Assembly: GCA_019307815.1 (NCBI GenBank)
Contig: JAFDIV010000016.1
Coordinates: forward strand, 1 to 64,000
DNA length: 64,000 nucleotides
Direction: 5' to 3'
Origin: Deltaproteobacteria bacterium
GTDB lineage: Bacteria; Desulfobacterota; DSM-4660; Desulfatiglandales; Desulfatiglandaceae
Numbering within the stretch: position 1 is the stretch's first letter; each line of letters begins with the position of its first letter. The notes under the pieces were generated by a model, which saw nothing but the letters and a program-made list of their open reading frames with translations, was not told the DNA's origin and did not search any database. This document shows, one piece after another, positions 26,955-59,338 of the stretch. The position numbers and the translations under genes were made by a program.

Positions 26955-29315
26955 TCAAAACCCTTGATGCTCTGTCCTGCTGATGATCTCTTCTTGATGA
27001 TCAGTATCCAAATCCACGAAATAGTCGCTATACCCCGCCACCCGTACTAGCAAATCCCGGTATTCTTCTGGATGCGCTTGGGCATCCCGCAAAGTCTTTG
27101 TATCGACAATGTTAAACTGAACATGATGGCCGTTTAGGTTGAAATAGGTCCTGATAAGCTGCACCAACTTGTCGAGATCCTCCTCCTTCTCCAAGACGCT
27201 CGGAAGAAACCGCAGGTTCAGAAGGGTTCCTCCTGATCTGACTTGATCCATTTTGCCCAAAGACTTTATCACTGCCGTGGGCCCATTGCGATCAGCCCCC
27301 TGAGAAGGCGAAGTACCGTCAGATATGGGCAGCCCGGCTGGCCTCCCGTTGGCCGAGGCTCCGAGTTTCTTACCAAAATAGATATGGCATGTTGTGGAAA
27401 GCATGTTCAGGTGATACCGACCGTTCTTGGTATTGGGTTTTCCGTCTATCGCCTCAAATAATGAATCATACACCCTCTGCATTATACGATCGGCCCGGTC
27501 ATCATCGTTTCCAAAAAAAGGGGTCTTGTTCTTCAGTCTAAGCCTGAGAGCTTCTTCACCTTCAAAATTGCTGGAAAGTGCTTTCAAGAGATGATCCATG
27601 CTCACAGTCTTCTGTTCGAACACGTGCTTCTTAATGGCCGAAAAGCTGTCGGTTACCGTTCCTATACCACAACATTGTATGTAATTGGTGTTGTACCTTG
27701 GGCCTCCGTCATAATAGTCCTTGCCCTTTGCGATACAATCGGCGATCACCACCGAAAGGAAGGGGGCAGGAACGTTTTCAGCATATACCCTCTCAATATA
27801 GTTGTTTACACGAATCTTCAGATCCACTACATATTCAAGCTGTTTTTCAAAGGCAGAGTAAAGCTCATCAAAGGTATTAAATGACCGGGAATCGCCGGTC
27901 TCTATACCCACCATTTCCCCTGTAAGAGGATCAACCCCATTGTTCAAGGTAATCTCTAATATTTTTGGCACATTGAGATACCCAGTGAGAATATAGGCCT
28001 CTTTCCCGAATGCGCCGGTTTCAATGCATCCGCTGCAACCCCCTTCACGGGCATCTTCCACCGTTTTTCCAGCCCGTAGTTGCTCCAATACCACTTCATC
28101 GGCATTGAACACCGAAGGATAACCGTAGCCCTTTCTGATAACTCGGCAGGCAGCCTTCAGGAACTGATTCGGGGTCTTCCTACTTATCTGCACATTGCTT
28201 TGGGGTTGGAGTAGGTGCAACTCATCAATAACCTCGAGAATAAGATAGGAAAGCTCATTTACGGCATCAGAGCCGTCACGGGAGAGGCCCCCCAGATTGA
28301 TATTTGTGAAATCATTATACGTACCGCTCTCCTCAGCAGTTACTCCCACCTTTGGGGGAGCTGGATGGTTATTTACCTTTATCCAGAAACAGCTAATCAG
28401 CTCCTTGGCCTTGTCTCTGTCGATAGATCCATCTTTCAAGCCTTTCTCGTAAAACGGATAGAGATGCTGATCCAGGTGCCCGGGATTCATTGCATCCCAT
28501 CCGTTAAGTTCCGTAATGGTGCCGAGATGAACAAACCAATACATTTGGAGGGCCTCCCAGAAATCCCTTGGCGCATTAGCAGGGACACGCCAGCAGTTTG
28601 CAGCTATCCGCTTCAGCTCCATTTTTCGCACAGGGTCTTCTTCTAAGGCAGCCAGCTTTTCTGCTAGGTCAGCGTGCCGTTGTGCAAATATTATAGCCGC
28701 GTCGCAGGCGATATCCATGGCCCTCAGCTCTTCCGCCTTATTATATGCCTCCGGATCTTTCAAATAGTCCAGAGAGGAGATGCTTTCCGCGATTTCTCTT
28801 TTAAAATCAAGCATGCCTTTCTTGTATATCGTGCCGTCAAGGGTAGTATGCCCTGGGGCTCGTTGCTCCATGAACTCTGTAAATAGGCCCGCCCTGTACG
28901 CAGACTTCCATGCCTCAGGAACATGATCAAAAATACGGTCACGTATAGACCTGCCCTTCCAGTAGGGAATGACTTTTTCCTCATAGGTTTTTATGTCTTC
29001 CTCCGAGATCTTATATCTGGTCATGGCCCTACTGTTCAGAATTCTGAGGTCCTTGGCTGTATGGCACGTAAGCTCCGGAAATGTTGGAACAGCCTTGGGA
29101 AAAGGCCCACGTTCTCCAACGATCAACTCATCCTTTCCAATATAGATAGTTTTGTGCTCACAAAGATACTTGAAGTTAAGAGCACGAAGAACAGGAGTTG
29201 AATATTTGCCAATGTTCCTTTTGTAAAACTCAGTCACCAAGAGTGCTCGTTCAATGGATATGCACGGTTCGGCCTCCAAACTTGCCTTCCTCAATCTTTC
29301 TATTCTAGCATTCAA
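26955..29315 (-). CDS. hypD: Glycyl radical enzyme, probable trans-4-hydroxy-L-proline dehydratase (HypD)
   Basis: A 786-residue pyruvate-formate-lyase family protein. The thiyl radical Cys is C430 and the general base E432 (GGCSGCIETG); the radical glycine is G761 (RVAGYSDYF). Residues I recall as active-site positions of the Clostridioides difficile HypD (H160, D278, S334, F340, C434, E436, Y450, T645, G765) all fall on identical residues here with a constant shift of four: H156, D274, S330, F336, C430, E432, Y446, T641, G761. That agreement makes this the radical dehydratase that converts trans-4-hydroxy-L-proline to delta1-pyrroline-5-carboxylate, and not a choline, glycerol or propanediol enzyme. 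It lies 5 bases after its activase gene. The name hypD is shared with an unrelated hydrogenase maturation gene. Confidence 0.9.
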   Translation of the reverse strand: MNARIERLRKASLEAEPCISIERALLVTEFYKRNIGKYSTPVLRALNFKYLCEHKTIYIGKDELIVGERGPFPKAVPTFPELTCHTAKDLRILNSRAMTRYKISEEDIKTYEEKVIPYWKGRSIRDRIFDHVPEAWKSAYRAGLFTEFMEQRAPGHTTLDGTIYKKGMLDFKREIAESISSLDYLKDPEAYNKAEELRAMDIACDAAIIFAQRHADLAEKLAALEEDPVRKMELKRIAANCWRVPANAPRDFWEALQMYWFVHLGTITELNGWDAMNPGHLDQHLYPFYEKGLKDGSIDRDKAKELISCFWIKVNNHPAPPKVGVTAEESGTYNDFTNINLGGLSRDGSDAVNELSYLILEVIDELHLLQPQSNVQISRKTPNQFLKAACRVIRKGYGYPSVFNADEVVLEQLRAGKTVEDAREGGCSGCIETGAFGKEAYILTGYLNVPKILEITLNNGVDPLTGEMVGIETGDSRSFNTFDELYSAFEKQLEYVVDLKIRVNNYIERVYAENVPAPFLSVVIADCIAKGKDYYDGGPRYNTNYIQCCGIGTVTDSFSAIKKHVFEQKTVSMDHLLKALSSNFEGEEALRLRLKNKTPFFGNDDDRADRIMQRVYDSLFEAIDGKPNTKNGRYHLNMLSTTCHIYFGKKLGASANGRPAGLPISDGTSPSQGADRNGPTAVIKSLGKMDQVRSGGTLLNLRFLPSVLEKEEDLDKLVQLIRTYFNLNGHHVQFNIVDTKTLRDAQAHPEEYRDLLVRVAGYSDYFVDLDTDHQEEIISRTEHQGF

Positions 29316-29320
29316 GTTAG

Positions 29321-30232
29321 TTACCCTCCTATTTTTATTGGCAATCCTGTCTTTGCCAATCTCTCCGATATGGCCTTGACATGAGATTCGCTGGGAACAT
29401 CAGACCTTGAGAAATGATATTTCATGCCTAGTTTGTTGTATTTATTTCGGCCAGTATCGTGGTATGGTAAAACATGAACATCACAAATATTGGGGAGCTC
29501 TTGGATAAGGGTCGCTATCTGTTCGATATTCTCTTCATCATCATTAATACCGGGAATCAGTGGAATGCGAATCGAGATATTTGTCCCTTCTCCTGCAAGA
29601 TGAATAAGGTTTGAAAGGATTTTTTCATTCGAAACCCCAGTAAACTCTCTGTGTTTTTCGGGATCCATTAACTTGATATCAAAAAGAAAGAGGTCTGTTT
29701 TTTCTGCCACAGCCATGAGTGTATCCAGATCAGCATAACCCGAAGTATCCACAGCGCGATGAATTTCCTTTTCTCCGCAGGCCTCAAGGAGATGAATAAG
29801 AAATTCAGCCTGCATCAAAGGTTCACCGCCCGAAAAGGTTACCCCACCCCCTGAGGTATCAAAAAATGGTACGTCCTTTTCGATCTCCTCCAATATATGG
29901 GAGGTACTTTCAATCTTCCCTATGAACTCCCGCGCCTCGGCAGGGCACACCTTTGCGCAGGTACCGCACTCCTTGCAAAGAGAAGGCGCTGACACGAACC
30001 CTTCGGGCGTAGGTGTAATGGCACCATTTGGGCAAGCAGCCATGCACTCCCCACATCCAATACACAAGTCTTTGCGGTAAATCAAGTGCGGCTTAGTGGA
30101 AATCCCCTCGGGGTTGTGGCACCACCGACAGGACAAAGGACACCCCTTCAGAAAAACAGTTGTTCTGATTCCAGGGCCATCGTGAATAGCATATTTCTTA
30201 ATATCGAAAATGAGTCCTTTATCGCCACACAT
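29321..30232 (-). CDS. hypE: Glycyl radical enzyme-activating protein (radical SAM), HypE-type
   Basis: A 303-residue radical SAM protein. The SAM cluster motif is C31-x3-C35-x2-C38 (CPLSCRWC), followed by two ferredoxin-type clusters (CIGCGECMAACP and CKECGTCAKVCP), the layout of activases for dehydratase-type glycyl radical enzymes. FSGGEP and other SAM-binding segments follow. It installs the radical on the glycine of the enzyme encoded 5 bases downstream. The operon appears to start here, after the terminator of the upstream ProRS-like gene. Both proteins require anaerobic conditions. Confidence 0.92.
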   Translation of the reverse strand: MCGDKGLIFDIKKYAIHDGPGIRTTVFLKGCPLSCRWCHNPEGISTKPHLIYRKDLCIGCGECMAACPNGAITPTPEGFVSAPSLCKECGTCAKVCPAEAREFIGKIESTSHILEEIEKDVPFFDTSGGGVTFSGGEPLMQAEFLIHLLEACGEKEIHRAVDTSGYADLDTLMAVAEKTDLFLFDIKLMDPEKHREFTGVSNEKILSNLIHLAGEGTNISIRIPLIPGINDDEENIEQIATLIQELPNICDVHVLPYHDTGRNKYNKLGMKYHFSRSDVPSESHVKAISERLAKTGLPIKIGG

Positions 30233-30392: not shown

Positions 30393-32135
30393 CTATTGCG
30401 TGTAGTTTGTCTTCAGATCCAGATATCCAAGCTTTTTCAATAGTTCCTCGTACGTAATAAGTTCCTTCTCCTTGCTGCCTCGGAGTTTTACTTCTATTCT
30501 CCGCTCACTTAGTGTGCGCTTGCTGATGGTCAAACGTACTGGCATACCTAAAAGGTCTGCATCATCGAATTTTTCTCCTGCTCGCACATCCCTGTCATCA
30601 AATAGGACTTCTACGTTTGCGTCAAGAAGCTTCCGATACAAGCCTTCCGCCTCCTCCCTTACGTGCTCGTCCTCAAGGTTCAATGCGATCAAATGAACTT
30701 GGAAGGGGGCCACTGGTATAGGCCAGATGATCCCAAACTCATCATGGCTTTGTTCGACAATACTGGCCATCATCCTACTTATCCCGATGGAGTAATATCC
30801 CATGACAAAAGGCCTGGGTTTTCCTTGACTATCAATGTAAGTCCAATTCTTTCGGCTTTCTTGCCCTGGCTTCTGGCCTAGCATCGCAAGCCGACCAACC
30901 GAAACACCCCTGGCTTGTCTCAATATGCCATTATCGCATCTTGGACAGAAATGCCCTTCCCTCGCCAGCTTGAAATCACCGAACAGAGGAAGGGGCAAAT
31001 CACGGCCGAAATTGACATTGATCATATGGTAATCCGTCCGATTAGCTCCGCACTCGAAATTGATACGGTTCTTGGTGTATTCATCTGCAAGAACGGTCAC
31101 CTCCTCGGGTAGGCCGATGGGGCCCGCGTACCCCACTTCCGCACCGGTCAATTCCTTTACAACCTCGGGGGAGGCAAGTGTCAGATCCCTACAGCCAAGG
31201 AATCTCTTCACCTTATTTTCGTTAACCTCACAATCCCCTCGCACCATGACCGCTACCACCCTATCGTCTGCCTGAAACAGCATGGTCTTGGTGGTCTTCC
31301 ATACCGGGATGTTAAGAAATTCGGCTAATGCTTCTACCCCTATCAGTCCTTTCCCGTAGACCTCTGTCATTTCCATGGGACTTTCACTAGGTTCTTGGGG
31401 GTAGAGTTTCAGGCGTGATTCTGCCTTTCCTTCTGTTGCTGCATAAGTACAGGCATCGCAGTAAAGAAATACATCTTCACCAGTATCGGTCAATATAATG
31501 AACTCATAACATCCTCTATCATCAACTAATCCCGCATCAGCTTCCACATATTTGTATTCGATGCCGATCCGGTTGAATATGTTCTCGTAGGCATCACGGA
31601 CCGCAAAATAAGAAACATTCGCTTCAGTTTCGTCTATATCAAAGCTGTATGCATCAGCGGAAATGAATTCTCTCGCCCTAATCAATCCAAAACGCGGCCG
31701 TTTATTGTCACAAAACTTTGTGCCAATCTGAAAGACCCTCTTTGGCAGTTGCTTGTATGAGGATATTTCTTTTCCGATAAGATCCGCGACCATATTCTGA
31801 TAAGGCCAGCCCAAGCAGAGTCTGCTTCCTCTGCAATCTCTGAATTCAAAGATCCCTTCTAGGGCATCATGCGAGCCAGGTGTTTCATCTTCAGTGAAGA
31901 AATACTTGGGCTGAAGGGCGGGCATTAACAATTCCTCAAACCCGGCCCTCACCATCTCTCCTCTAACAATCTGGGAGATCTTATTCAGAGAGCGTACGAG
32001 AAAGGGCATGTATGCGTATATGCCGGCAGATATTTGTTTGATGTACCCGCCACGGAGCATAAGTCGATATGACTCCATCTGTGCATCTTTTGGAACTTCT
32101 CTCAGAGTTTTTCCTGTGTGTTTCGATAGCCTCAT
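30393..32135 (-). CDS. Prolyl-tRNA synthetase paralogue with degenerate aminoacylation site
   Basis: A 580-residue protein with full-length bacterial ProRS architecture: class II catalytic core, INS editing domain (about 225-385), CxxC site (C397, C400), motif 3 and anticodon-binding domain (about 475-570). Key core positions differ from canonical ProRS. The proline-binding loop PTHEE is WPYQN (110-114). Motif 2 KFRDE is KFCDN, so the ATP-contacting arginine is C142. MKDAYSF is SADAYSF. The pocket segment HIFQLGTKYS is RLAMLGQKPG (415-424), and GCYGIGVSR is GYYSIGISR (Y447). The INS lysine (K283) and histidine (H370) and the anticodon domain are kept. It is therefore unlikely to be the housekeeping ProRS. 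A trans-editing or non-tRNA ligase role linked to hydroxyproline is possible. No clear ribosome site precedes the ATG. Confidence 0.85.
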   Translation of the reverse strand: MRLSKHTGKTLREVPKDAQMESYRLMLRGGYIKQISAGIYAYMPFLVRSLNKISQIVRGEMVRAGFEELLMPALQPKYFFTEDETPGSHDALEGIFEFRDCRGSRLCLGWPYQNMVADLIGKEISSYKQLPKRVFQIGTKFCDNKRPRFGLIRAREFISADAYSFDIDETEANVSYFAVRDAYENIFNRIGIEYKYVEADAGLVDDRGCYEFIILTDTGEDVFLYCDACTYAATEGKAESRLKLYPQEPSESPMEMTEVYGKGLIGVEALAEFLNIPVWKTTKTMLFQADDRVVAVMVRGDCEVNENKVKRFLGCRDLTLASPEVVKELTGAEVGYAGPIGLPEEVTVLADEYTKNRINFECGANRTDYHMINVNFGRDLPLPLFGDFKLAREGHFCPRCDNGILRQARGVSVGRLAMLGQKPGQESRKNWTYIDSQGKPRPFVMGYYSIGISRMMASIVEQSHDEFGIIWPIPVAPFQVHLIALNLEDEHVREEAEGLYRKLLDANVEVLFDDRDVRAGEKFDDADLLGMPVRLTISKRTLSERRIEVKLRGSKEKELITYEELLKKLGYLDLKTNYTQ

Positions 32136-32211: not shown

Positions 32212-32409
32212 TCACCCACCTGCAACCATTGGTATCAGGATCACTTCGGCATTGTCAGGAATAAGGGTGGACTCGAATTTGGGCCTTGAAATGAGCCGGC
32301 CGTTAAGCCGAACCACTGCATATGTATGGCCATCTTCCCTTTCTGCAAGTAGGGAGGCAATGGTCATTCCTTCATACCAAGGAACCTGCTCGTCACCAAC
32401 CTTTATCAC
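32212..32409 (-). CDS. ThiS/MoaD-family sulfur carrier protein (second copy)
   Basis: A 65-residue beta-grasp sulfur carrier ending in Gly-Gly (MVAGG), the site of thiocarboxylation. It starts with a GTG that overlaps the AOR stop codon (GTGA), so it is translationally coupled to the second AOR gene, and a role in pterin cofactor supply for that AOR is more likely than thiamine synthesis. It parallels the AOR/MoaD-like pair at 8723-10915, although the order and spacing differ. Confidence 0.78.
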   Translation of the reverse strand: MIKVGDEQVPWYEGMTIASLLAEREDGHTYAVVRLNGRLISRPKFESTLIPDNAEVILIPMVAGG

Positions 32410-34550
32410 GACTCCACGCCGTTTGCCCTCAGTACTTCCAGGACTTCTGGAAAGTCAATACCCAGTCGTTTCACTGTCTTTAGGGTGGGAATCCCATCCT
32501 TGGTCCATCCGCGCCTTTCATAGACCGCATCTTTAAGGCGCTCATATTGTTCTTCCCTGAACTTGCGAAGGATGGCCAACTTTTCGGCGGTTTCTTTGCC
32601 GGTAATATCAACACCGTACTTCTCAACAAGCTGCTTATCATATCTATCCTGCCGTGATTCGTATTCTTCAACAGTTACCGGTCCCATGGCCCTATAAGGG
32701 ACAGAATCGTGTTCTCTCCGGCCGTAGCCCATCCTGAGGTTGAAGATCCGCTGGAAATTGTACACGGCCTCACTCATTCTTATAAGATCATCAGGGGTCA
32801 CGTTCCTCCCGGTAACAGCACGAAAGTAATCCGCATACCACTGCACATGCTTCATGACCTTGGCAGGCTCAGGAGTTTCCTTGTTGTCCTCGGGGACAAT
32901 GTCGTTCCAAGGCAGTTTGCACAGGCCACAGAGGCCGAACCAGGTGCGGAACATGGGGAACCAGTGAAGGGCCTCTGCCTTTTGTTCAAATGTTGGCATA
33001 TAGTTATGTACCATATCCAGGAAAATGAGCCAGGCCTCGTCATGCTGGGGGCCCTTGAGGGCAAGGCCGTATCCACCCTGCTGGGCCAGGGATTCCTTTG
33101 TCATGTATTCTGAAAATTCCAGGCCCTTGGATTCCATCCCAATATCATTCATGACGTTCGGATCCGCACCATATTCCTTTTCAAAGATTTCCTTCATCCT
33201 TCGCACACCTTGGCCCACAATGGCACCAAAACCTTCGCCTCTGGCCATCTGGTGTAATAATTCTAGTGCGCTGAGCCGGTTCCCAAAGCTTAGATCCATA
33301 CCGCCGGTGTGCTCTTTGGTGATCAGGCCCAGTTCAAAACATTCCATGGCAAAGGCAATGGAGGTTCCCACGGAGATGGTGTCCAGGCCATAGGCATCGC
33401 AGTAAAAGTTCATCTCAAGGATGGTAAAAGGATCGAATACCCCGATATTGGAACCGCAGCCTGCGATGGTTTCATATTCAGGGCCGTCCACAAACACCTT
33501 TTGTCCCTTATAAGGGCCGGTCATGGGCACGAAGTCTTTGACCCCGTGGGCGCATGCCACGGCACATCCCTTCCAGCAGCCGTCAAATCCTGGATCAAAC
33601 AGGTGCTGATACACCTCCCGCCCAATGTTATTTGCGCCGGGGTGCTGGCCGTAGCGGAAGTTATGGGTAGGCAATAGATCAAAGTCATTCATGATGGGCA
33701 CCAGGTGGGTGGTCCCAATTCTTGCCATTTCATTCTGTTTGGGATCCAGCTCCCTTATCTCTCGAGAATAGGCCTTGGAAACAGCCTTCAGCGCCTCCTT
33801 ATCAGCCGGATGGTTGGTATCCAAGGTGACCGACGAGTCCCAGCGAGCCACGATTGCCTTTATTCCCTTATCTGCAAAGACAGTCCCGATTCCACCCCGT
33901 CCGGCCTGTTTGTACCTCACCCTCTTGCGCTTCACATCATACCATGTGAAATTCAGGCACCCGATCAAGGTATGCCTTGCCCCAGGGCCGGTAGATACGA
34001 CCGAAATATCCTGCTTCTTCCCATCGGCAAAAAAATCCGTGAGTACCGCCGATAGGCTGTAAGAATCATCCGGAAGCCCGGGTATCTCAAGGATCTGTAT
34101 CTTTTGCTCAATGCCGTCAATCAAAATTACCGTGTCTCCAAGGCCCTTTCCCACCACCTCCAGGGCATCAAATCCCGAAAACTTCAGATAGGGGCCGAAG
34201 TAACCGCCCACATTGGAATCCATGACCGACCCTGTGGTGGGAGAGATGGTGGTGACAATGCTTTTCCCTGATCCTGGAAAGGTAGGGGTCCCTCCCAAAG
34301 GACCCGAGGCAATGCAAATGGCATTTTCAGGGTCATTCCATTTGGTCTTGCCCCTCACTGCATTCCACAGAAGCCAAAGGTCAAAGCCCTTCCCTCCCAC
34401 AAAGACCTCTTTCATCTTTTCAGATACTGGTTTAATGGAAATATCCTGTCTAGAAAGATCGATACAGAGAGTCTGATTAGCATATCCCCGCTCAATCTCA
34501 GGGCGTTTATATGTAGTGGTCTTGATTTCTTTAGTATTGAGTTCAACCAT
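32406..34550 (-). CDS. Aldehyde:ferredoxin oxidoreductase family protein (second copy)
   Basis: A 714-residue AOR family protein, about 100 residues longer than the first copy. The pterin domain (VFVGGKGFDLWLL, then ASGPLGGTPTFPGSG) and a cluster motif spaced C325-x3-C329-x3-C333 (CWKGCAVAC) are clear, with a C-terminal cysteine pair (LCGLCKLPWN). This spacing and length mark a different AOR subgroup from the first copy, so a different aldehyde or even a non-aldehyde substrate is possible. AGGAGG lies about 8 bases upstream of the ATG. The 178-base gap 34551-34728 before it holds its candidate leader and a weak hairpin (GTTCC-N8-GGAAC) after the preceding gene. Confidence 0.9.
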   Translation of the reverse strand: MVELNTKEIKTTTYKRPEIERGYANQTLCIDLSRQDISIKPVSEKMKEVFVGGKGFDLWLLWNAVRGKTKWNDPENAICIASGPLGGTPTFPGSGKSIVTTISPTTGSVMDSNVGGYFGPYLKFSGFDALEVVGKGLGDTVILIDGIEQKIQILEIPGLPDDSYSLSAVLTDFFADGKKQDISVVSTGPGARHTLIGCLNFTWYDVKRKRVRYKQAGRGGIGTVFADKGIKAIVARWDSSVTLDTNHPADKEALKAVSKAYSREIRELDPKQNEMARIGTTHLVPIMNDFDLLPTHNFRYGQHPGANNIGREVYQHLFDPGFDGCWKGCAVACAHGVKDFVPMTGPYKGQKVFVDGPEYETIAGCGSNIGVFDPFTILEMNFYCDAYGLDTISVGTSIAFAMECFELGLITKEHTGGMDLSFGNRLSALELLHQMARGEGFGAIVGQGVRRMKEIFEKEYGADPNVMNDIGMESKGLEFSEYMTKESLAQQGGYGLALKGPQHDEAWLIFLDMVHNYMPTFEQKAEALHWFPMFRTWFGLCGLCKLPWNDIVPEDNKETPEPAKVMKHVQWYADYFRAVTGRNVTPDDLIRMSEAVYNFQRIFNLRMGYGRREHDSVPYRAMGPVTVEEYESRQDRYDKQLVEKYGVDITGKETAEKLAILRKFREEQYERLKDAVYERRGWTKDGIPTLKTVKRLGIDFPEVLEVLRANGVES

Positions 34551-44342: not shown

Positions 44343-45137
44343 TCATGGTGCCTGTCTCGTCATCTCCCTTGCCAACAGTGCTGCGCCCAAGGCCCCCACT
44401 ACCTGGGGCTCTTGGGGAATATTCAATTTGGTTTTAAATAGCCTTTCCAGTACAGCCACCATTCCCTTGTTTTTTGCCACTCCGCCTGTAAACGTAATCT
44501 CACGGCGTATCCTCAAGCGTTTTGTCATCCTAAAGATCCGTCTGGCAATGGACTCATGGACACCTCGAATAATATCCTTCTTTTCAAGGCCGTCTGCAAT
44601 CAGTGAAATAACCTCAGACTCGGCAAAGACCGTGCACATACTGCTGATGGAAACCCCACGCTTCGCCTCCACCGAAAGATCCCCAAGCTGTGACAGTTCC
44701 GTCTCCAAGGCGTCAGCCATCACCTCTAGAAAGCGGCCAGTTCCCGCAGCACACCTGTCATTCATCACAAAATCAGTAACCTCCCCCCTACTATTAAGGG
44801 TAATCACCTTGCTGTCCTGGCCCCCTATGTCCACCACTGTACGGGTTTTAGGGAAAAGATAGTGCGCCCCTCTGGCATGACAGGTAATCTCTGTCACCTC
44901 CCTATGGGCAAAAGGGACCCTTAGCCTTCCATAACCGGTTGCAACGATATGCCGTACATCACTCCTGGATCTTTCCGCTTTGTCCAAGGCTTCTTGCAAG
45001 CAGGACTCGGCAGCCCTTAAGGGATTGGCTCCTGTCCTTCGTATGGCATAGGCTACGATACCACCATCAGACAAGAGCACGGCCTCGGCCGAAAGTGAAC
45101 CCACATCAATTCCTGCGTCTATTTTATTGTGCTGCAT
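44343..45137 (-). CDS. 2-Hydroxyacyl-CoA dehydratase activase (BadF/BcrA family ATPase)
   Basis: About 264 residues, ASKHA ATPase fold with the phosphate motif GIDVGSLSAEAV and DIGGQDSKV. The two cysteines that bridge the subunit-shared [4Fe-4S] cluster are present (NDRCAAGTG and SSMCTVFAESE). It uses ATP to inject a low-potential electron into the dehydratase encoded upstream. I chose the ATG at 45137, two bases after the stop of the dehydratase gene; the frame is open further upstream without support. Confidence 0.9.
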   Translation of the reverse strand: MQHNKIDAGIDVGSLSAEAVLLSDGGIVAYAIRRTGANPLRAAESCLQEALDKAERSRSDVRHIVATGYGRLRVPFAHREVTEITCHARGAHYLFPKTRTVVDIGGQDSKVITLNSRGEVTDFVMNDRCAAGTGRFLEVMADALETELSQLGDLSVEAKRGVSISSMCTVFAESEVISLIADGLEKKDIIRGVHESIARRIFRMTKRLRIRREITFTGGVAKNKGMVAVLERLFKTKLNIPQEPQVVGALGAALLAREMTRQAP

Positions 45138-45138
45138 T

Positions 45139-46401
45139 CTATCCCAGCATCTCCACAAAGGCCTGAAGCCTGGTCCTCGTTTGGCCCGGAAAATAGTTAT
45201 CAGGGTCTGCACCGTCTCCGTAAAGGATCATATATGGAACCCCTTGATCCTTTAGAAAATCCCCAATAATACTAGCACCTCCACAGCTCTGCCTGCAGCC
45301 CCAATGGGAAAAATGGATAACCCCATTGACTCGGTAATTGTTCACCATCTCCTTGACCGCACCAAGTCTCCTTTCCAAGGGCCCGGCCCATACATTGGAA
45401 AGGATCTTGTGGGCCAGTGAATCCAAAGGTTTCGTGGGATCAAAGGGAGGCCAGTACATATAGTTTGCCTCCTCAAAGCACACAGACACCCCCTGAGAGG
45501 ACAGGAATTGAAAGATATCGTTTTGATAGTAGGGACGTATATGGTGAAGCCACAAAACGCGATACCGTTCATTATCCAAATACCCCCTCTTCTTGGCAAC
45601 CCTGTCTTCCAGCTCCCGTGCAAGTATTGCAGAAAACCGTACTCCCCATGTAGAACCAGGTGAACAAAATCCCATTCCAGCCAAGTAGCTCAGGCCTTCA
45701 CTACCGGGAAACGGGGCAGGTATCGCCATCCTCAACCTATTGATCCTTACCATATACTTCCTCATGGTATTGGACAGGCCCACCACTTTGCACAGCTCTT
45801 CTTCAGATAAAGACACCGCCATCAGATCTACCATGTGAGCCAAGAGGTAACGCAACTGATCTGTAACATATCCGTGCGCCTCCGGCCCAGTGTCATAAGG
45901 GGGGTCCAGCAACAGGTGAGAACAGGCGTACCTCTGGGAGAGATAAGAAAAAAACTTGTTGGCCCCGTCGCACAGGTGACTTGAGGAAACAATCAAATCT
46001 GGCCGCGGTAGATACCCTTCTACTGCCAAGCCAAGGGCGCATCTATAAAAAGAACAGACATCAGTGGACATCATGGAATTGCCAATGGAAATGAAAGGAG
46101 GGGCCCAGCCAAGATAGGAAACCAATGCGGCAATGATTTCGGGTAAGATGGGGATAGCTCCCACAGCATAGGCCAGCTCTACAGGGGTAAAGGCACTCAT
46201 CCAGATAACCTTTTTTCTCTTGGAGCAAGCACTGCGCATCATCCAAATGAGATATCTGACCCAGATCTTATAAGCCCTGCTCTGCTCACGCAGATTTACG
46301 ATTTCCATGAGTGGGGCGAGGGACCAATAGGTCAAGGGATTGCGGACCACCCTTTTCAACGCCCTGTGTGAGATCTTTTCCTCTTCCCCTATCGTGGCCA
46401 T
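45139..46401 (-). CDS. 2-Hydroxyacyl-CoA dehydratase family subunit (HgdB-like)
   Basis: About 420 residues of the HgdB/FldC family of Fe-S dehydratase subunits, which dehydrate (R)-2-hydroxyacyl-CoA to enoyl-CoA after activation. Recognisable segments include SAFTPVELAYAVGAIP near the N-terminus, a cysteine in DVCSFYRCALG and the C-terminal HFSHWGCRQSCGG. The ATG at 46401 fits the family start; the frame is open to 46524 within the upstream gene but without a ribosome site. It lies between its partner subunit and the activase. Confidence 0.85.
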   Translation of the reverse strand: MATIGEEEKISHRALKRVVRNPLTYWSLAPLMEIVNLREQSRAYKIWVRYLIWMMRSACSKRKKVIWMSAFTPVELAYAVGAIPILPEIIAALVSYLGWAPPFISIGNSMMSTDVCSFYRCALGLAVEGYLPRPDLIVSSSHLCDGANKFFSYLSQRYACSHLLLDPPYDTGPEAHGYVTDQLRYLLAHMVDLMAVSLSEEELCKVVGLSNTMRKYMVRINRLRMAIPAPFPGSEGLSYLAGMGFCSPGSTWGVRFSAILARELEDRVAKKRGYLDNERYRVLWLHHIRPYYQNDIFQFLSSQGVSVCFEEANYMYWPPFDPTKPLDSLAHKILSNVWAGPLERRLGAVKEMVNNYRVNGVIHFSHWGCRQSCGGASIIGDFLKDQGVPYMILYGDGADPDNYFPGQTRTRLQAFVEMLG

Positions 46402-46420
46402 TTTCTGTGCCCTGCCATTG

Positions 46421-47539
46421 CTATCCAAAATTGGCCAACATCTCCAGAAAGGCCTGCACCCGTGTCCGTATTCCTCCCCCCAGACGCCCTCGGTACTCCC
46501 CTTCCAAAAACAGGATCGGGACATCTCTTTTTTGAAGTTTCTCCTTCAGTGCAGGAAATTCATATAGATAAGGATCACAGAACTTCAAAGCCCCATAGAT
46601 AAGCCCCTGGGCCCTTGTCTTTTCCACCTGCCTTAATAGAAATTTCGCCCGTGTGGCAGTATCCTTCATCCGGGCACAAGGGATCTTGCCAAGGTAGCTC
46701 TCGCTTAAGGCGTTGAGGATGTCCCCATCCAAGGGCACTTCTTGAACCATTCTTTCTGCCAGGCAACAGTCCACCCCTACTATGGTCCCGCCTAGCTCTT
46801 CTATAAGCTCAATAATCGAAGTACCATCTAAGATGGACCCAGTGACCAATACCCTGGGAGAAAACAGCTCCTTTTGTGTGCATTGCCCGGTTATCCTTAC
46901 AATCTCCTCCAAGGCATCATTAAAAAGCCGCCTGGGACCCTCCCATTCTTTCGAGAACAGGGCAAGCAGGGCGCTGTAACGAAGTCCAGGAACCCCCTGG
47001 ATATGATTCATTATCAATCTTTGATAAAGACGCCGCGTCCGATTTATCTCCTCTGTGGCTTGACGCAAAGAGTCCTCTGTAATCTCTGCTTTAAAATACT
47101 CTTCCAGAGCCCTGACAAAGGCCTGTAACCTGCCCCGAAAATAGGCAATTGCATTAGGGCTCCGTGTTCTGGGAACATCCAAAATAAAGGCAAAACCAGG
47201 GGGCATATAATGGCACCAGGCATCATAGAGCCTCCTCATCCCATCACAGGTATTCGCAACAATAATTCCAGACAATCCCTTGTATTCCCCGTCCATTGCC
47301 TTTCCCAAGCAGGCTCTCACATAGGGGCAAAAGTTGGGATCAAGGTATGCATCGGCCTTTTCCGAGGAGGGTTCTGGAAGGATTCGGGCCGGCGTAAGTC
47401 CTGCTGCCTCCACAATTTCAATAGGGATGTAAGTGCAGGTCCAGCCCACTGAAGCCACGGACTCGGCTCTACCGCCCTGTCTTCCTAGCTGGTCTAAGAT
47501 ATGTCGGATCACTTTCACAAAGGGGGCTGCTCTAGGCAA
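46421..47539 (-). CDS. 2-Hydroxyacyl-CoA dehydratase family subunit (HgdA/FldB-like)
   Basis: A 372-residue partner subunit with GWTCTYIPIEIVEAAGL near the N-terminus, FCPYVRACLG and NTCDGMRRLYDAW, placing [4Fe-4S] ligands in the usual positions. With the following subunit and the activase it makes a complete three-gene 2-hydroxyacyl-CoA dehydratase. The start is uncertain: TTG at 47539 lies only 3 bases after the stop of the receiver-PFK gene, and a GTG at 47518 is an alternative. Substrate (2-hydroxyglutaryl-, phenyllactyl-, lactyl- or isocaproyl-CoA type) cannot be told. Confidence 0.83.
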   Translation of the reverse strand: MPRAAPFVKVIRHILDQLGRQGGRAESVASVGWTCTYIPIEIVEAAGLTPARILPEPSSEKADAYLDPNFCPYVRACLGKAMDGEYKGLSGIIVANTCDGMRRLYDAWCHYMPPGFAFILDVPRTRSPNAIAYFRGRLQAFVRALEEYFKAEITEDSLRQATEEINRTRRLYQRLIMNHIQGVPGLRYSALLALFSKEWEGPRRLFNDALEEIVRITGQCTQKELFSPRVLVTGSILDGTSIIELIEELGGTIVGVDCCLAERMVQEVPLDGDILNALSESYLGKIPCARMKDTATRAKFLLRQVEKTRAQGLIYGALKFCDPYLYEFPALKEKLQKRDVPILFLEGEYRGRLGGGIRTRVQAFLEMLANFG

Positions 47540-47542
47540 ATA

Positions 47543-49030
47543 TTATCCCATTCCGTTCGTCCCTGTTAGCCTGTCAGACAAGACCAAGAGATCTTCCTCC
47601 ACCATATTGTCGGTATGGATTTCATTAAATGGAATGGCAAACTCCCGACCTGATCTTACAGCAGGCATCAACCTGGACGTTCCAGCCTTGAGGTATTGTG
47701 CCACATTGTATGCCATCCTTTGGGCCAGGGTGATATCCTGATTGTTAGGAGCCGCGCCCCTTATATCCCGGGAAAAGGGCTCGCAAATGACTCTCTGCTT
47801 GATTTCAATCCCGGTGGCCAGCAGTTCATGATAGAAATACTCGGCAGCATTCAGATCAAGACCCTTTGCCTCTCTTTCCTCTTTCTTGTAGCCCTCGGCC
47901 ACTACAATCACACACTCTTCCCGTTTGTTCAGGGCCTCAACCACCTTCTTGTGGTCGATCACACTATTGGGCAAGACGGCCAGGTGGGCCCTGGCCCCCA
48001 AACAGGAATGTAAGGCATGAAATCCACTCCTGGCTCCCATCATCTCCAAAATGTACGTTCGCTTGTGGGTTCTGGCATCTGCCATGTAACACCGAATCTT
48101 TTCAGAGCCCATCTCAATTCCTGTATGTTGTCCAATACACTCTGTGCCTGCGATGTCGCTGTCAATGGTGACAGGGATAAAAAAGACCTGAATAGAGGTA
48201 GGAAGCAAGTTACATAGGGCCTCGACACCCTTGAATGTGCCGTTTCCACCTATGGCAATAATGGCCCTTACCTTCCTGCGCTTGATGGTTTCGGCGGCCT
48301 TTTTTTGCACACTCTTTTTCACAAAATCCCTGTATCGCTCACTTCGAAGCTGGGCGCCTCTGGATTCGGAAAGGGGGGCTGCATGGAATACCCCTGGTAT
48401 ATGGTCTAGTTTCTTGAAAAGGTCTGGATCATAGACAAGCCGTACAAAATCATCGTCACTGCCCGTAACCAGAGATTTAAAGCCCTCTCGTGTGGCATAG
48501 GTTTCCCGGCCCATGGCCTCCAAATGATAGGTGATAAAGGCAGTCACAGGATTATACCCTGGCGCACAACCTCCGTCCTGAATAAGCAGCACGTCGATCT
48601 CCTCGAACATGCGTCTCTTTTCAAGGTCTGCCCTCTTTATATGGGAGGTAATCCTCTGGCCCACCTTTACTCGGGCAATGAGTTCGTCTGGATCAACAGG
48701 TTTGGTCAGATAGTCGTCTGCGCCTTCGCTTATGCACCGAATCTTGTCTTCCTTGGCCTCCCGTGCACTTACAATGATCACATAGATATCAGACAAATCG
48801 GATTCTGGATCTGCCTTGATAAATCGGCAAAGTTCCCGGCCATCCATCCGTGGCATCTCCAGATCACAGACCACAATGTCTGGAGGGGATTTCTTGATCA
48901 TCTCCATTGCCTCTGCGCCGTCGCAGGCCTCTTTGACCAAAAGGCCCGGCACGCTCCGCAATATCTTGGTATAAAGTTTGCGCGTAGAGGCCTCATCCTC
49001 CACCACCAGGATCCTGTATTTGTCCGTCAT
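47543..49030 (-). CDS. Response-regulator receiver fused to a phosphofructokinase-like domain
   Basis: A 495-residue two-domain protein. Residues 5-125 are a CheY-like receiver with the acidic pair E11/D12, phosphoacceptor D56 (VVCDLEMP), S88 and K110-P111. Residues 145-485 match the ATP/PPi 6-phosphofructokinase fold: GGCAPGYN near 153, GGNGT at 261-265 (canonical GGDGS), TIDSD at 288-292 (canonical TIDND, keeping the catalytic aspartate) and MGARSG at 331-336. No helix-turn-helix is present. Phosphorelay control of a sugar-phosphate kinase would be a novel link; loss of kinase activity and use as a sensor is an alternative. A good AGGAGGG precedes the ATG. It leads the dehydratase operon. 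Confidence 0.85.
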   Translation of the reverse strand: MTDKYRILVVEDEASTRKLYTKILRSVPGLLVKEACDGAEAMEMIKKSPPDIVVCDLEMPRMDGRELCRFIKADPESDLSDIYVIIVSAREAKEDKIRCISEGADDYLTKPVDPDELIARVKVGQRITSHIKRADLEKRRMFEEIDVLLIQDGGCAPGYNPVTAFITYHLEAMGRETYATREGFKSLVTGSDDDFVRLVYDPDLFKKLDHIPGVFHAAPLSESRGAQLRSERYRDFVKKSVQKKAAETIKRRKVRAIIAIGGNGTFKGVEALCNLLPTSIQVFFIPVTIDSDIAGTECIGQHTGIEMGSEKIRCYMADARTHKRTYILEMMGARSGFHALHSCLGARAHLAVLPNSVIDHKKVVEALNKREECVIVVAEGYKKEEREAKGLDLNAAEYFYHELLATGIEIKQRVICEPFSRDIRGAAPNNQDITLAQRMAYNVAQYLKAGTSRLMPAVRSGREFAIPFNEIHTDNMVEEDLLVLSDRLTGTNGMG

Positions 49031-57305: not shown

Positions 57306-58097
57306 TCATTTCTCTGAAGCAGCTGCCGCGTCCATTGCGTACAGTGCCGCTCCTACCGCGCCTGTCAATTGTGGGCGCTCTGGTACCATAACCTCTAACC
57401 CTGTCCTCTCTCTCACCATTTCCACGAGGTAAGGATTATGTTCAACAACTCCCCCGGTCATAACCACCCTGTCAGTCAAGCTGTCCATTTCAAGGACTCT
57501 CTTTATAACAGAGAGGAATAGGCCCTTGACAATATCAGGAACCTTCTTCCCTTGCCTAATTTTCTCCAAGACCTCCGTAGCTGAAAAAACGGTGCAATAA
57601 CTTCCGAGTTCTACCAAATTCTCAGACTGTCTAGCCAGTTCGTCCATTTCTTCAAGGGGGATATCCAGCCGCATGGACATCTCTTCCAAGAACGCCCCTG
57701 TGCCAGCGGCACACTTACGATTCATTTTAAAACTGAGGCGGTGTCCCGCTTCATCAAGCTTGATTATTTTGTTGTCCTGCCCTCCAATGTCAATAATAGT
57801 GATGGCCATGGGAAAATAGTGAAATGCCCCTTTGGCATGGCAGCCTATTTCAGTTTTTGTGAATTCGCTAAAAGGAACATTTTTCCTCCCATACCCGGTT
57901 GATACGCAGAAACCTATATCTTCACGGGAAAGGCCTGCCATTTTCAAGGCCTCATCCAGCGCCAATTCTGCCGTTTTTTCAAAATCTGTTCCCGACTTCC
58001 TCACAGAGTGACCAATTATCTCTTTGTTTTTGTCAAGAACGGCCACTTTCGTTCGGGAAGCCCCAACATCTACTCCCACAAACACAGGTTCAGACAT
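57306..58097 (-). CDS. 2-Hydroxyacyl-CoA dehydratase activase (BadF/BcrA family ATPase, second copy)
   Basis: A 263-residue ATPase with VGVDVGASRTKVAVLD and DIGGQDNKI phosphate motifs and the two cluster cysteines (NRKCAAGTG and GSYCTVFSATE). It activates the dehydratase subunit encoded directly upstream. The ATG at 58097 overlaps the stop of that gene; GTG one codon upstream is also possible. Confidence 0.9.
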   Translation of the reverse strand: MSEPVFVGVDVGASRTKVAVLDKNKEIIGHSVRKSGTDFEKTAELALDEALKMAGLSREDIGFCVSTGYGRKNVPFSEFTKTEIGCHAKGAFHYFPMAITIIDIGGQDNKIIKLDEAGHRLSFKMNRKCAAGTGAFLEEMSMRLDIPLEEMDELARQSENLVELGSYCTVFSATEVLEKIRQGKKVPDIVKGLFLSVIKRVLEMDSLTDRVVMTGGVVEHNPYLVEMVRERTGLEVMVPERPQLTGAVGAALYAMDAAAASEK

Positions 58098-59338
58098 CAC
58101 TCTTCTTCCAACTGCTCAATAAAGGCCTCAATATTGGTCTTGGCCTGTTCCTCCGAATAACATCTAAGGTCATTCAAGTCCCCGTTTATGGTGAGGGTGG
58201 GAATGCCAAGCTTTTTGCTCAGCCTCTCCGGCATACCATAACGGTTGTTGGAGTTGTTAGGACAGGTCTTGGCGTCATGAAATATGATGCCGTGGAGCTT
58301 AAAAAATTCAAAACAGCTCTTTATGTACTCTTCTTTGTAAGCCTCATCCCTTACTATAAACAATTCAGTATAGGCCCTTGCCATACTCTCAAAGGGCTCA
58401 TCAGGATCAAGCTGATCAAATATCCAACTGTTGCAATAGGTGGAAGCCACAATGCAGGTCTGCAAGGAGGCAAACAGCTCCGATAGGGATCGCAATTTAC
58501 CCCAAATCGGCATGCCCTCCCAATAGAGGCGGTATCTTTCCCCTTCCACTGCAGCAGTACCGTCTTTAACTCTTTGGGTCAACTCCTCCAAAAGCAATTC
58601 ATAGTAATCCACAGCCTCCTTTGTGCCTCGGGCCACCACCGCAGGCCCCATATGGATGGTGGCATCGAAAAAGGTCCAGGGAGATGGTATGGCGGCTGCT
58701 GCCTCAAGGCATCTCCGCCATAGTATAGAACACTGCCTTGATAGCGCTACAGCCTCCTTGAACCGATCCATATCAAATTTTTCTCCAGTTACCTCCTCCA
58801 GAGGGGGGATCAAGTCCTCAATCTGCTTGGCTATATCCTTTATCTGATAGTCGCGAATCCTTCCGATATCCCGATGTGTATGAATCCCCACAACTGGCAC
58901 TCCAAATTCCCTACCATACCACGTAAACCAGTCTTGCACGTCCCGACATTGGTTAGTGTTAAACACCAGCACATCCGGTCTGGGCACAGACTCTATGTTA
59001 TACGCCTTGGTAAGAGGGGTCTTCTTTTGTAAATAAGAGCCGATGTCACTTGTGAGGTAGGAACAGATGTCGGGTGAGTAACCAATGGCATTGGCATACG
59101 GAATCAGCTCGGTGGCCATTCGTGTAGCGCCTAGCATAGCGCCATGGTTTTCCGGGAAATAGACCAGAAATCCCATTCCCCTAAGCAGTTCAGCCGGACC
59201 TACGCTGGTGCACCAGGCCACCTTTTTTGAGCCTGTCCTGGCTGCCTCATCTAGTTCATAGAAGTGATTCGCCATTATCTTCTTGAGCGTTTTGGTGGCC
59301 GCGATCTCTTTTCTTAAGCTTTCTTTTATGGCAAGCAT
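58097..59338 (-). CDS. 2-Hydroxyacyl-CoA dehydratase/benzoyl-CoA reductase family subunit (second system)
   Basis: A 413-residue family member resembling BcrB/HgdB: WCTSVGPAELLRGMGFLVYFPENHGA, YSPDICSYLTSDIGSY and NTNQCRDVQDW place the expected [4Fe-4S] cysteines, with CPNNSNNRYG near the C-terminus. Unlike the first system, only one dehydratase-type subunit gene is present; the partner may be elsewhere or the enzyme may be a homodimer. It is translationally coupled to the activase. Confidence 0.85.
   Translation of the reverse strand: MLAIKESLRKEIAATKTLKKIMANHFYELDEAARTGSKKVAWCTSVGPAELLRGMGFLVYFPENHGAMLGATRMATELIPYANAIGYSPDICSYLTSDIGSYLQKKTPLTKAYNIESVPRPDVLVFNTNQCRDVQDWFTWYGREFGVPVVGIHTHRDIGRIRDYQIKDIAKQIEDLIPPLEEVTGEKFDMDRFKEAVALSRQCSILWRRCLEAAAAIPSPWTFFDATIHMGPAVVARGTKEAVDYYELLLEELTQRVKDGTAAVEGERYRLYWEGMPIWGKLRSLSELFASLQTCIVASTYCNSWIFDQLDPDEPFESMARAYTELFIVRDEAYKEEYIKSCFEFFKLHGIIFHDAKTCPNNSNNRYGMPERLSKKLGIPTLTINGDLNDLRCYSEEQAKTNIEAFIEQLEEE

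Follow-up and report, generated by a model that had tools for sequence, protein, structure and literature searches.

Why would a bacterium keep, among genes for hydroxyproline breakdown, a second prolyl-tRNA synthetase (ProRS) without the residues of a working aminoacylation site? The gene that raises this question lies in the window, by which we mean the whole stretch of 64,000 nucleotides analysed here; the source genome has 4.1 Mb and is 98% complete, with 5.3% contamination.

A ProRS body with an altered aminoacylation site

The paralogue is encoded by a full-length ORF with an ATG start, and its product of 580 aa scores above the cut-offs set for the two curated models of full-length bacterial ProRS (NF006625, 566.9 against 558; TIGR00409, 477.9 against 306.7), so that the full ProRS architecture recognised in the first-pass annotation stands. 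Three Pfam domains are found in it, the class II core, tRNA_edit (the INS domain) and HGTP_anticodon. The AlphaFold2 model, obtained from an input alignment of 32 sequences, has a pLDDT of 88.3 and a pTM of 0.87, and its best match in the PDB is the E. faecalis ProRS 2j3l (TM 0.87); the pLDDT is below 50 at residues 83-92 and 422-428, which by alignment flank the synthetic site, as well as in the C-terminal tail. The features of the gene are:

30393..32135, minus strand: ProRS paralogue (curated profiles, AlphaFold2 model, PDB match)
31794..31808, minus strand: W110PYQN in place of PTHEE, proline/ATP site (alignment)
31704..31715, minus strand: F141CDN in place of motif 2 FRDE, with Arg changed to C142 and Glu to N144 (alignment)
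31641..31661, minus strand: SADAYSF (159-165) in place of MKDAYSF (alignment)
31500..31523, minus strand: DDRGCYEF (205-212) in place of canonical GGSxSHEF (alignment)
30864..30896, minus strand: GRLAMLGQKPG (414-424) in place of GHIFKLGTKYS (alignment)
30783..30800, minus strand: GYYSIG (446-451) in place of GCYGIG, motif 3 region (alignment)
30960..31370, minus strand: core of the INS editing domain (residues 256-392), the most conserved part (PF04073, 91.9 bits)
31287..31289, minus strand: INS catalytic lysine K283, equivalent of E. coli K279, invariant in the alignment
31026..31028, minus strand: INS histidine H370, equivalent of E. coli H369, invariant in the alignment
30429..30710, minus strand: anticodon-binding domain (residues 476-569), conserved (PF03129)

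In domain order, identity (about 35-39% to solved bacterial ProRS structures) and predicted fold, the protein is like the bacterial ProRS with INS (TIGR00409 / NF006625; E. faecalis 2J3L); unlike them, it has lost aminoacylation residues and has a second, intact proS alongside. Five of the substitutions had been named earlier, and all five are found at the aligned positions; the sixth, GGSxSHEF to DDRGCYEF, had been missed. The Arg of motif 3 (R454) is retained. The residues expected of a functional proline--tRNA ligase (the Arg and Glu of motif 2, PTHEE, GCYGIG and the residues of GTKYS) are not those found, and by these sequence tests the paralogue is not such an enzyme. It is also no chance product, because homologues of 60-65% identity with differing broken motifs are present in other genomes. 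Four cysteines, arranged as CDAC ... CPRC (C226, C229, C397 and C400), make a zinc-knuckle-like pair either side of INS; the pair is also seen in the canonical ProRS of relatives and is absent from the E. faecalis ProRS.

The search for a second, canonical proS, set earlier as a check, found one in the same genome (C57:29261-30919). It is 45% identical to the paralogue, its motifs are intact (PTHEE, FRDE, GHIFKLGTKYS and GCYGIG, as well as those of INS), and it clusters in the tree with the canonical copies of the same family.

Relatives of the paralogue and the hydroxyproline locus

The survey of homologues that the first-pass annotation had asked for, made by genome searches and one INS-alignment scan of 84,980 species genomes, yields a small clade with varied broken motifs, the neighbours of which we compared. 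Besides the copy in the window, seven have a broken core, and these are found in Desulfobacterota, Acidobacteriota and one planctomycete. The motifs in the clade are:

G028, broken copy: RTYTP / FHDE / AHYTFG
G002, broken copy: LPYED / FRDH / GSYSLG
Acidobacteriota, broken copies (three close, and a fourth in G468): GDPAAA or GPQDGL, motif 3 Arg lost
G070 (Sedimentisphaerales), broken copy: GDCTGA / FSDK
G062, partly degraded copy: PAHEEV, GGYSID
G060, G061, two Dadabacteria, two Phycisphaerae and others: main motifs intact

In G002, which belongs to the same genus, an aldehyde ferredoxin oxidoreductase (AOR) gene precedes the paralogue (L006), as in the window; the window locus is thus no binning accident of one genome. 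The gene is rare, since the pattern FECGANxT was matched in the window alone among 395 genomes of the phylum, a sample that omitted G002, G028 and G060. In the full-length tree all broken copies form one clade (100/98), a grouping that may result from long-branch attraction. Broken and intact copies of Desulfobacterota fall into one group in the INS-only tree (86/93), and a single clade of broken copies is not rejected by the AU test (p 0.39), so that synthesis may have been lost either once or twice.

The varied motifs bear on whether the active site has been rebuilt, making the paralogue a ligase for another imino acid or acceptor. A new specificity should conserve its new site, but the replacements vary by lineage (WPYQN, RTYTP, LPYED, GDPAAA, GPQDGL, GDCTGA); the Arg of motif 2 has become C, H or S in three copies and, by alignment, Q in a fourth, the Glu of motif 2 is also lost, as is the Arg of motif 3 in the Acidobacteriota, and the active-site loops 83-92 and 422-428 are modelled at a pLDDT below 50. 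Although the fold is predicted to be intact, purifying selection still acts on the core (dN/dS about 0.25) and G060 and G061 retain most catalytic motifs, we regard such a ligase, one of the functions put forward in the first-pass annotation, as quite unlikely, the active site having been lost differently in each lineage and not rebuilt consistently.

A sister paralogue, represented by L005/L093 in G060 and L035 in G061, keeps PTHEE, FRDE and GCY, with GYIT for GHIF and CHDF for SHEF; it may be a second ProRS that is active and discriminates proline analogues differently. The genomes of L041 (G066) and L037 (G062) pair an archaeal-type proS with a bacterial-type member of the clade. In the two Dadabacteria with intact-motif copies, neither a HypD match nor a second bacterial-type ProRS was found.

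The nearest neighbours of the paralogue in the window are:

26955..29315, minus strand: HypD, trans-4-hydroxy-L-proline dehydratase (NF043068, 1240 bits, cut-off 1100)
29321..30232, minus strand: HypD activase, radical SAM (best match NF043069, 384 bits, cut-off 425)
32212..32409, minus strand: sulfur-carrier-like ORF of 65 aa, GG-ending, adjoining the AOR gene
32406..34550, minus strand: AOR-like gene

These coordinates agree with the earlier placement of the paralogue between an AOR/sulfur-carrier pair and the HypD operon, HypD being above its cut-off. Proline racemase-family, DapA-family, AcnX (cis-3-hydroxyproline dehydratase-like) and ornithine cyclodeaminase-like genes surround it. Nearly the whole stretch from 3103 to 41188 resembles one hydroxyproline catabolism island, with two complete branched-chain-type ABC transporters, two proline racemase-family and two DapA-family genes, AcnX, HypD, two FAD oxidoreductase sets and an ornithine cyclodeaminase-like gene. 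At 44343-47539 and 57306-59338 are two gene sets that by eye resemble 2-hydroxyacyl-CoA dehydratase components with their activators; a response regulator fused to a phosphofructokinase-like domain (47543-49030) adjoins one of them.

Paralogue and HypD share one 19-kb contig in G060. In G061 the paralogue lies beside racemase, DapA-family and cyclodeaminase genes, in G062 beside a cyclodeaminase gene only, and in G028, the fourth paralogue carrier, the HypD activase adjoins it at the contig end. HypD is above the cut-off in three of the 61 relatives, each of which also carries the paralogue (Fisher p 1e-4, which ignores relatedness, paralogue and HypD being linked in Desulfobacterota), and in 25 of 149 Acidobacteriota, among them all four carriers (p 6e-4, again ignoring relatedness, three of the four being closely related). 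The two genes are on different contigs in the Acidobacteriota and are not adjacent in the planctomycete. Each genome that carries a broken copy also has HypD or, where the contig ends, the HypD activase at least; HypD is found in G070 and in a Phycisphaerae genome (G068) whose second ProRS has intact motifs. The exceptions to this link are G061 (2 Mb of sequence), G062 (a partial match of 670 bits) and G066, which has an intact-motif copy and an archaeal-type proS and is without HypD. Moreover, the main motifs are intact in G060, though its copy lies in the same kind of hydroxyproline locus; the association with hydroxyproline thus does not require the loss of synthesis.

The adjacent catabolic genes of the Desulfobacterota would also suit a regulator or sensor, the latter being another function put forward in the first-pass annotation; HisZ-like or GCN2-like, it would bind a proline analogue or tRNA-Pro, charged or not, and, perhaps as a heterodimer, control the locus or the housekeeping ProRS; dead synthetase paralogues with roles in regulation are known (HisZ; PMC9437257). 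This is unlikely, however: within the stretches read, no regulatory or catabolic gene is a neighbour common to the Acidobacteriota copies, the three close ones lying in one conserved block in which no hydroxyproline genes were recognised and the distant one having little of its neighbourhood in common with them. Nor would a sensor explain why the hydrolytic Lys, Gly and His of INS are invariant and why constraint is strongest in INS. Rfam and tRNA scans of the window returned nothing, so that no riboswitch, T-box or companion tRNA backs a sensor or a pair like that of ProRSx (see below), and promoter and terminator scans gave no more matches than shuffles.

Selection on the editing and anticodon-binding domains

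The catalytic Lys, the Gly loop and the His of INS are present in the paralogue, and K283 and H370, counterparts of the key residues of E. coli INS (K279 and H369), are invariant in all 32 aligned sequences. The INS lysine and histidine are thus intact, as they had appeared to be in the first-pass annotation, and so is the anticodon-binding domain, which is conserved to the level of active relatives. The eight broken copies keep a fraction of 0.52 and 0.39 of the canonical-fixed columns in the two halves of the core, 0.77 in INS and 0.81 in the anticodon domain; in intact-motif relatives the corresponding values are 0.89, 0.88, 0.77 and 0.83. Since the fraction is reduced in the core of the broken copies and not in INS or the anticodon domain, constraint has been lost only in the core. 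Mean pairwise identity is 34% in the core and 68% in INS among broken copies, against 67% and 49% among canonical ProRS. The dN/dS of three Acidobacteriota pairs, drawn from three genomes only, is lower in INS (0.09-0.13) than in the N-terminal core (0.23-0.27), with the anticodon domain at 0.14-0.31; in five canonical pairs INS has the higher value of the two, at 0.11-0.22 against 0.014-0.064 for the N-terminal core. Selection on the broken copies is therefore reversed with respect to canonical ProRS, with a relaxed core and a tight INS. Pairs from the window lineage, too diverged for dS, show the same contrast by identity (INS 80-83%, core 47-62%).

With dN/dS below 1 in every domain, a sign of purifying selection, the paralogue is no pseudogene. 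A redundant, horizontally acquired second ProRS in the course of becoming one would account for the sporadic occurrence (1 of 395 in the sample described above) and for the several degrees of decay that coexist, but is very improbable, as the frames are full-length, dN/dS is well below 1 throughout, and INS and the anticodon domain are undiminished despite great divergence.

The INS type of the clade is marked by W279, T282, C302 (an invariant His in canonical ProRS) and E361-C362, and is common to broken copies and intact-motif relatives, including the two Dadabacteria with no HypD match; thus, nothing in INS points specifically to hydroxyproline. Comparison of broken copies with intact-motif relatives found no hydroxyproline-specific INS residue, and only three INS columns split the two groups, with no clear specificity signal. 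The Patescibacteria-type ProRS (L047-L055) share an NFECGAN-type INS in which RGGY replaces RGDH, another INS subtype.

A proposed editing function and its significance

The sequence evidence suggests that the paralogue is probably an editing-only ProRS, and we infer that it would bind tRNA-Pro through its anticodon-binding domain and deacylate mischarged tRNA in trans. Its own synthesis of Pro-tRNA would be lost or negligible; the anticodon-binding domain, on the retained ProRS scaffold, would bind tRNA-Pro, the 3' end of which would be presented to INS, and INS would hydrolyse the mischarged aminoacyl-tRNA-Pro produced by the separate canonical ProRS. By itself, the INS domain of E. coli ProRS is not specific for tRNA-Pro; it relies on the anticodon-binding domain, the acceptor stem hardly mattering (PMC3973320; PMC11295145). 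An editing-only enzyme must therefore keep INS, the anticodon domain and the scaffold that joins them, and may dispense with the synthetic site; the pattern of retention expected is the one observed. E. coli INS is reportedly active even when separated from the rest of the synthetase. The stand-alone editing factor proposed in the first-pass annotation is thus favoured by the second proS, the retention of INS and anticodon domain, the domain-specific selection and the link to HypD, which extends to genomes where the two genes are unlinked.

As to the amino acid removed by editing, we infer, with some reserve, that hydroxyprolyl-tRNA-Pro is the most likely single substrate. Retention in hydroxyproline-fermenting anaerobes would follow from high free hydroxyproline, chargeable by the canonical ProRS. 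Hydroxyproline is mischarged onto tRNA-Pro in E. coli, according to work cited in PMC7595273, and the known editing sieve of canonical ProRS discriminates solely against substrates smaller than proline (PMC7934785), so that a hydroxyproline-rich organism has a gap to fill. Slightly more tentatively still, the paralogue may represent a dedicated hydroxyproline quality control, arisen once or twice in hydroxyproline fermenters of three phyla, in which INS clears hydroxyprolyl-tRNA-Pro. Against hydroxyproline as the substrate, INS does not normally admit substrates as large as proline or larger.

An editing-only enzyme may instead act on Ala-tRNA-Pro (or on the Cys, 2-aminobutyrate or azetidine carboxylate products), the link to HypD then reflecting an amino-acid-fermenting lifestyle; this overlaps with the explanation preferred here and differs in the substrate alone. 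The equivalents of known Ala-specific INS residues are kept, intact-motif relatives, two of which gave no HypD match, have the same INS type, and in G062, whose ProRS is of the archaeal type without INS, editing of Ala in trans would be useful. However, the canonical ProRS of G000, G069, G070 and G071 have complete INS motifs, so that extra Ala editing seems redundant there, and broken copies and HypD co-occur beyond linkage. We consider Ala-tRNA-Pro or another analogue the main alternative, though a rather unlikely substrate, and hydroxyprolyl-tRNA-Pro the better candidate.

The paralogue may work like a trans-editing factor while being built, to judge from its sequence, as a whole ProRS. By analogy, its closest functional parallel is ThrRS-ed of crenarchaea. 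ThrRS-ed works apart from the synthesising enzyme and, to our knowledge, has no link to a catabolic locus. In the paralogue too, editing and anticodon domains are under selection, synthesis appears lost and a separate enzyme synthesises, in another synthetase family. Both have an editing and an anticodon-binding domain (for ThrRS-ed, PMC11295145), but ThrRS-ed belongs to the threonine system and its synthetase domain is absent, whereas that of the paralogue is retained but decayed. With the INS-superfamily trans-editors the paralogue shares the INS fold, the catalytic Lys and the pocket residues, as well as the proposed deacylation in trans; these are single-domain proteins (PMC11295145), unlike the paralogue, which has a whole ProRS body of 580 aa with its own anticodon-binding domain. 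Streptomyces ProRSx, the only ProRS paralogue in a review of synthetase duplication, is likewise a second ProRS beside the housekeeping one, but is active and paired with a tRNA-Pro bearing an Ala anticodon (PMC9437257), whereas the window has no tRNA gene and the active site of the paralogue is lost. In the literature searched, which left most subscription journals outside, we found neither a description of a ProRS paralogue in a hydroxyproline locus nor one of an editor for Hyp-tRNA.

As the paralogue exceeds the curated cut-offs for 'proline--tRNA ligase', it would be misannotated as such. Collagen-derived hydroxyproline is an abundant food for anaerobes, and how those that eat it exclude it from their proteins becomes directly testable with one gene. 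If the proposal is true, INS would have a specificity for a substrate larger than proline, undescribed in the same literature, and the paralogue would give ProRS a counterpart to ThrRS-ed and add a new architecture to the INS editing family.
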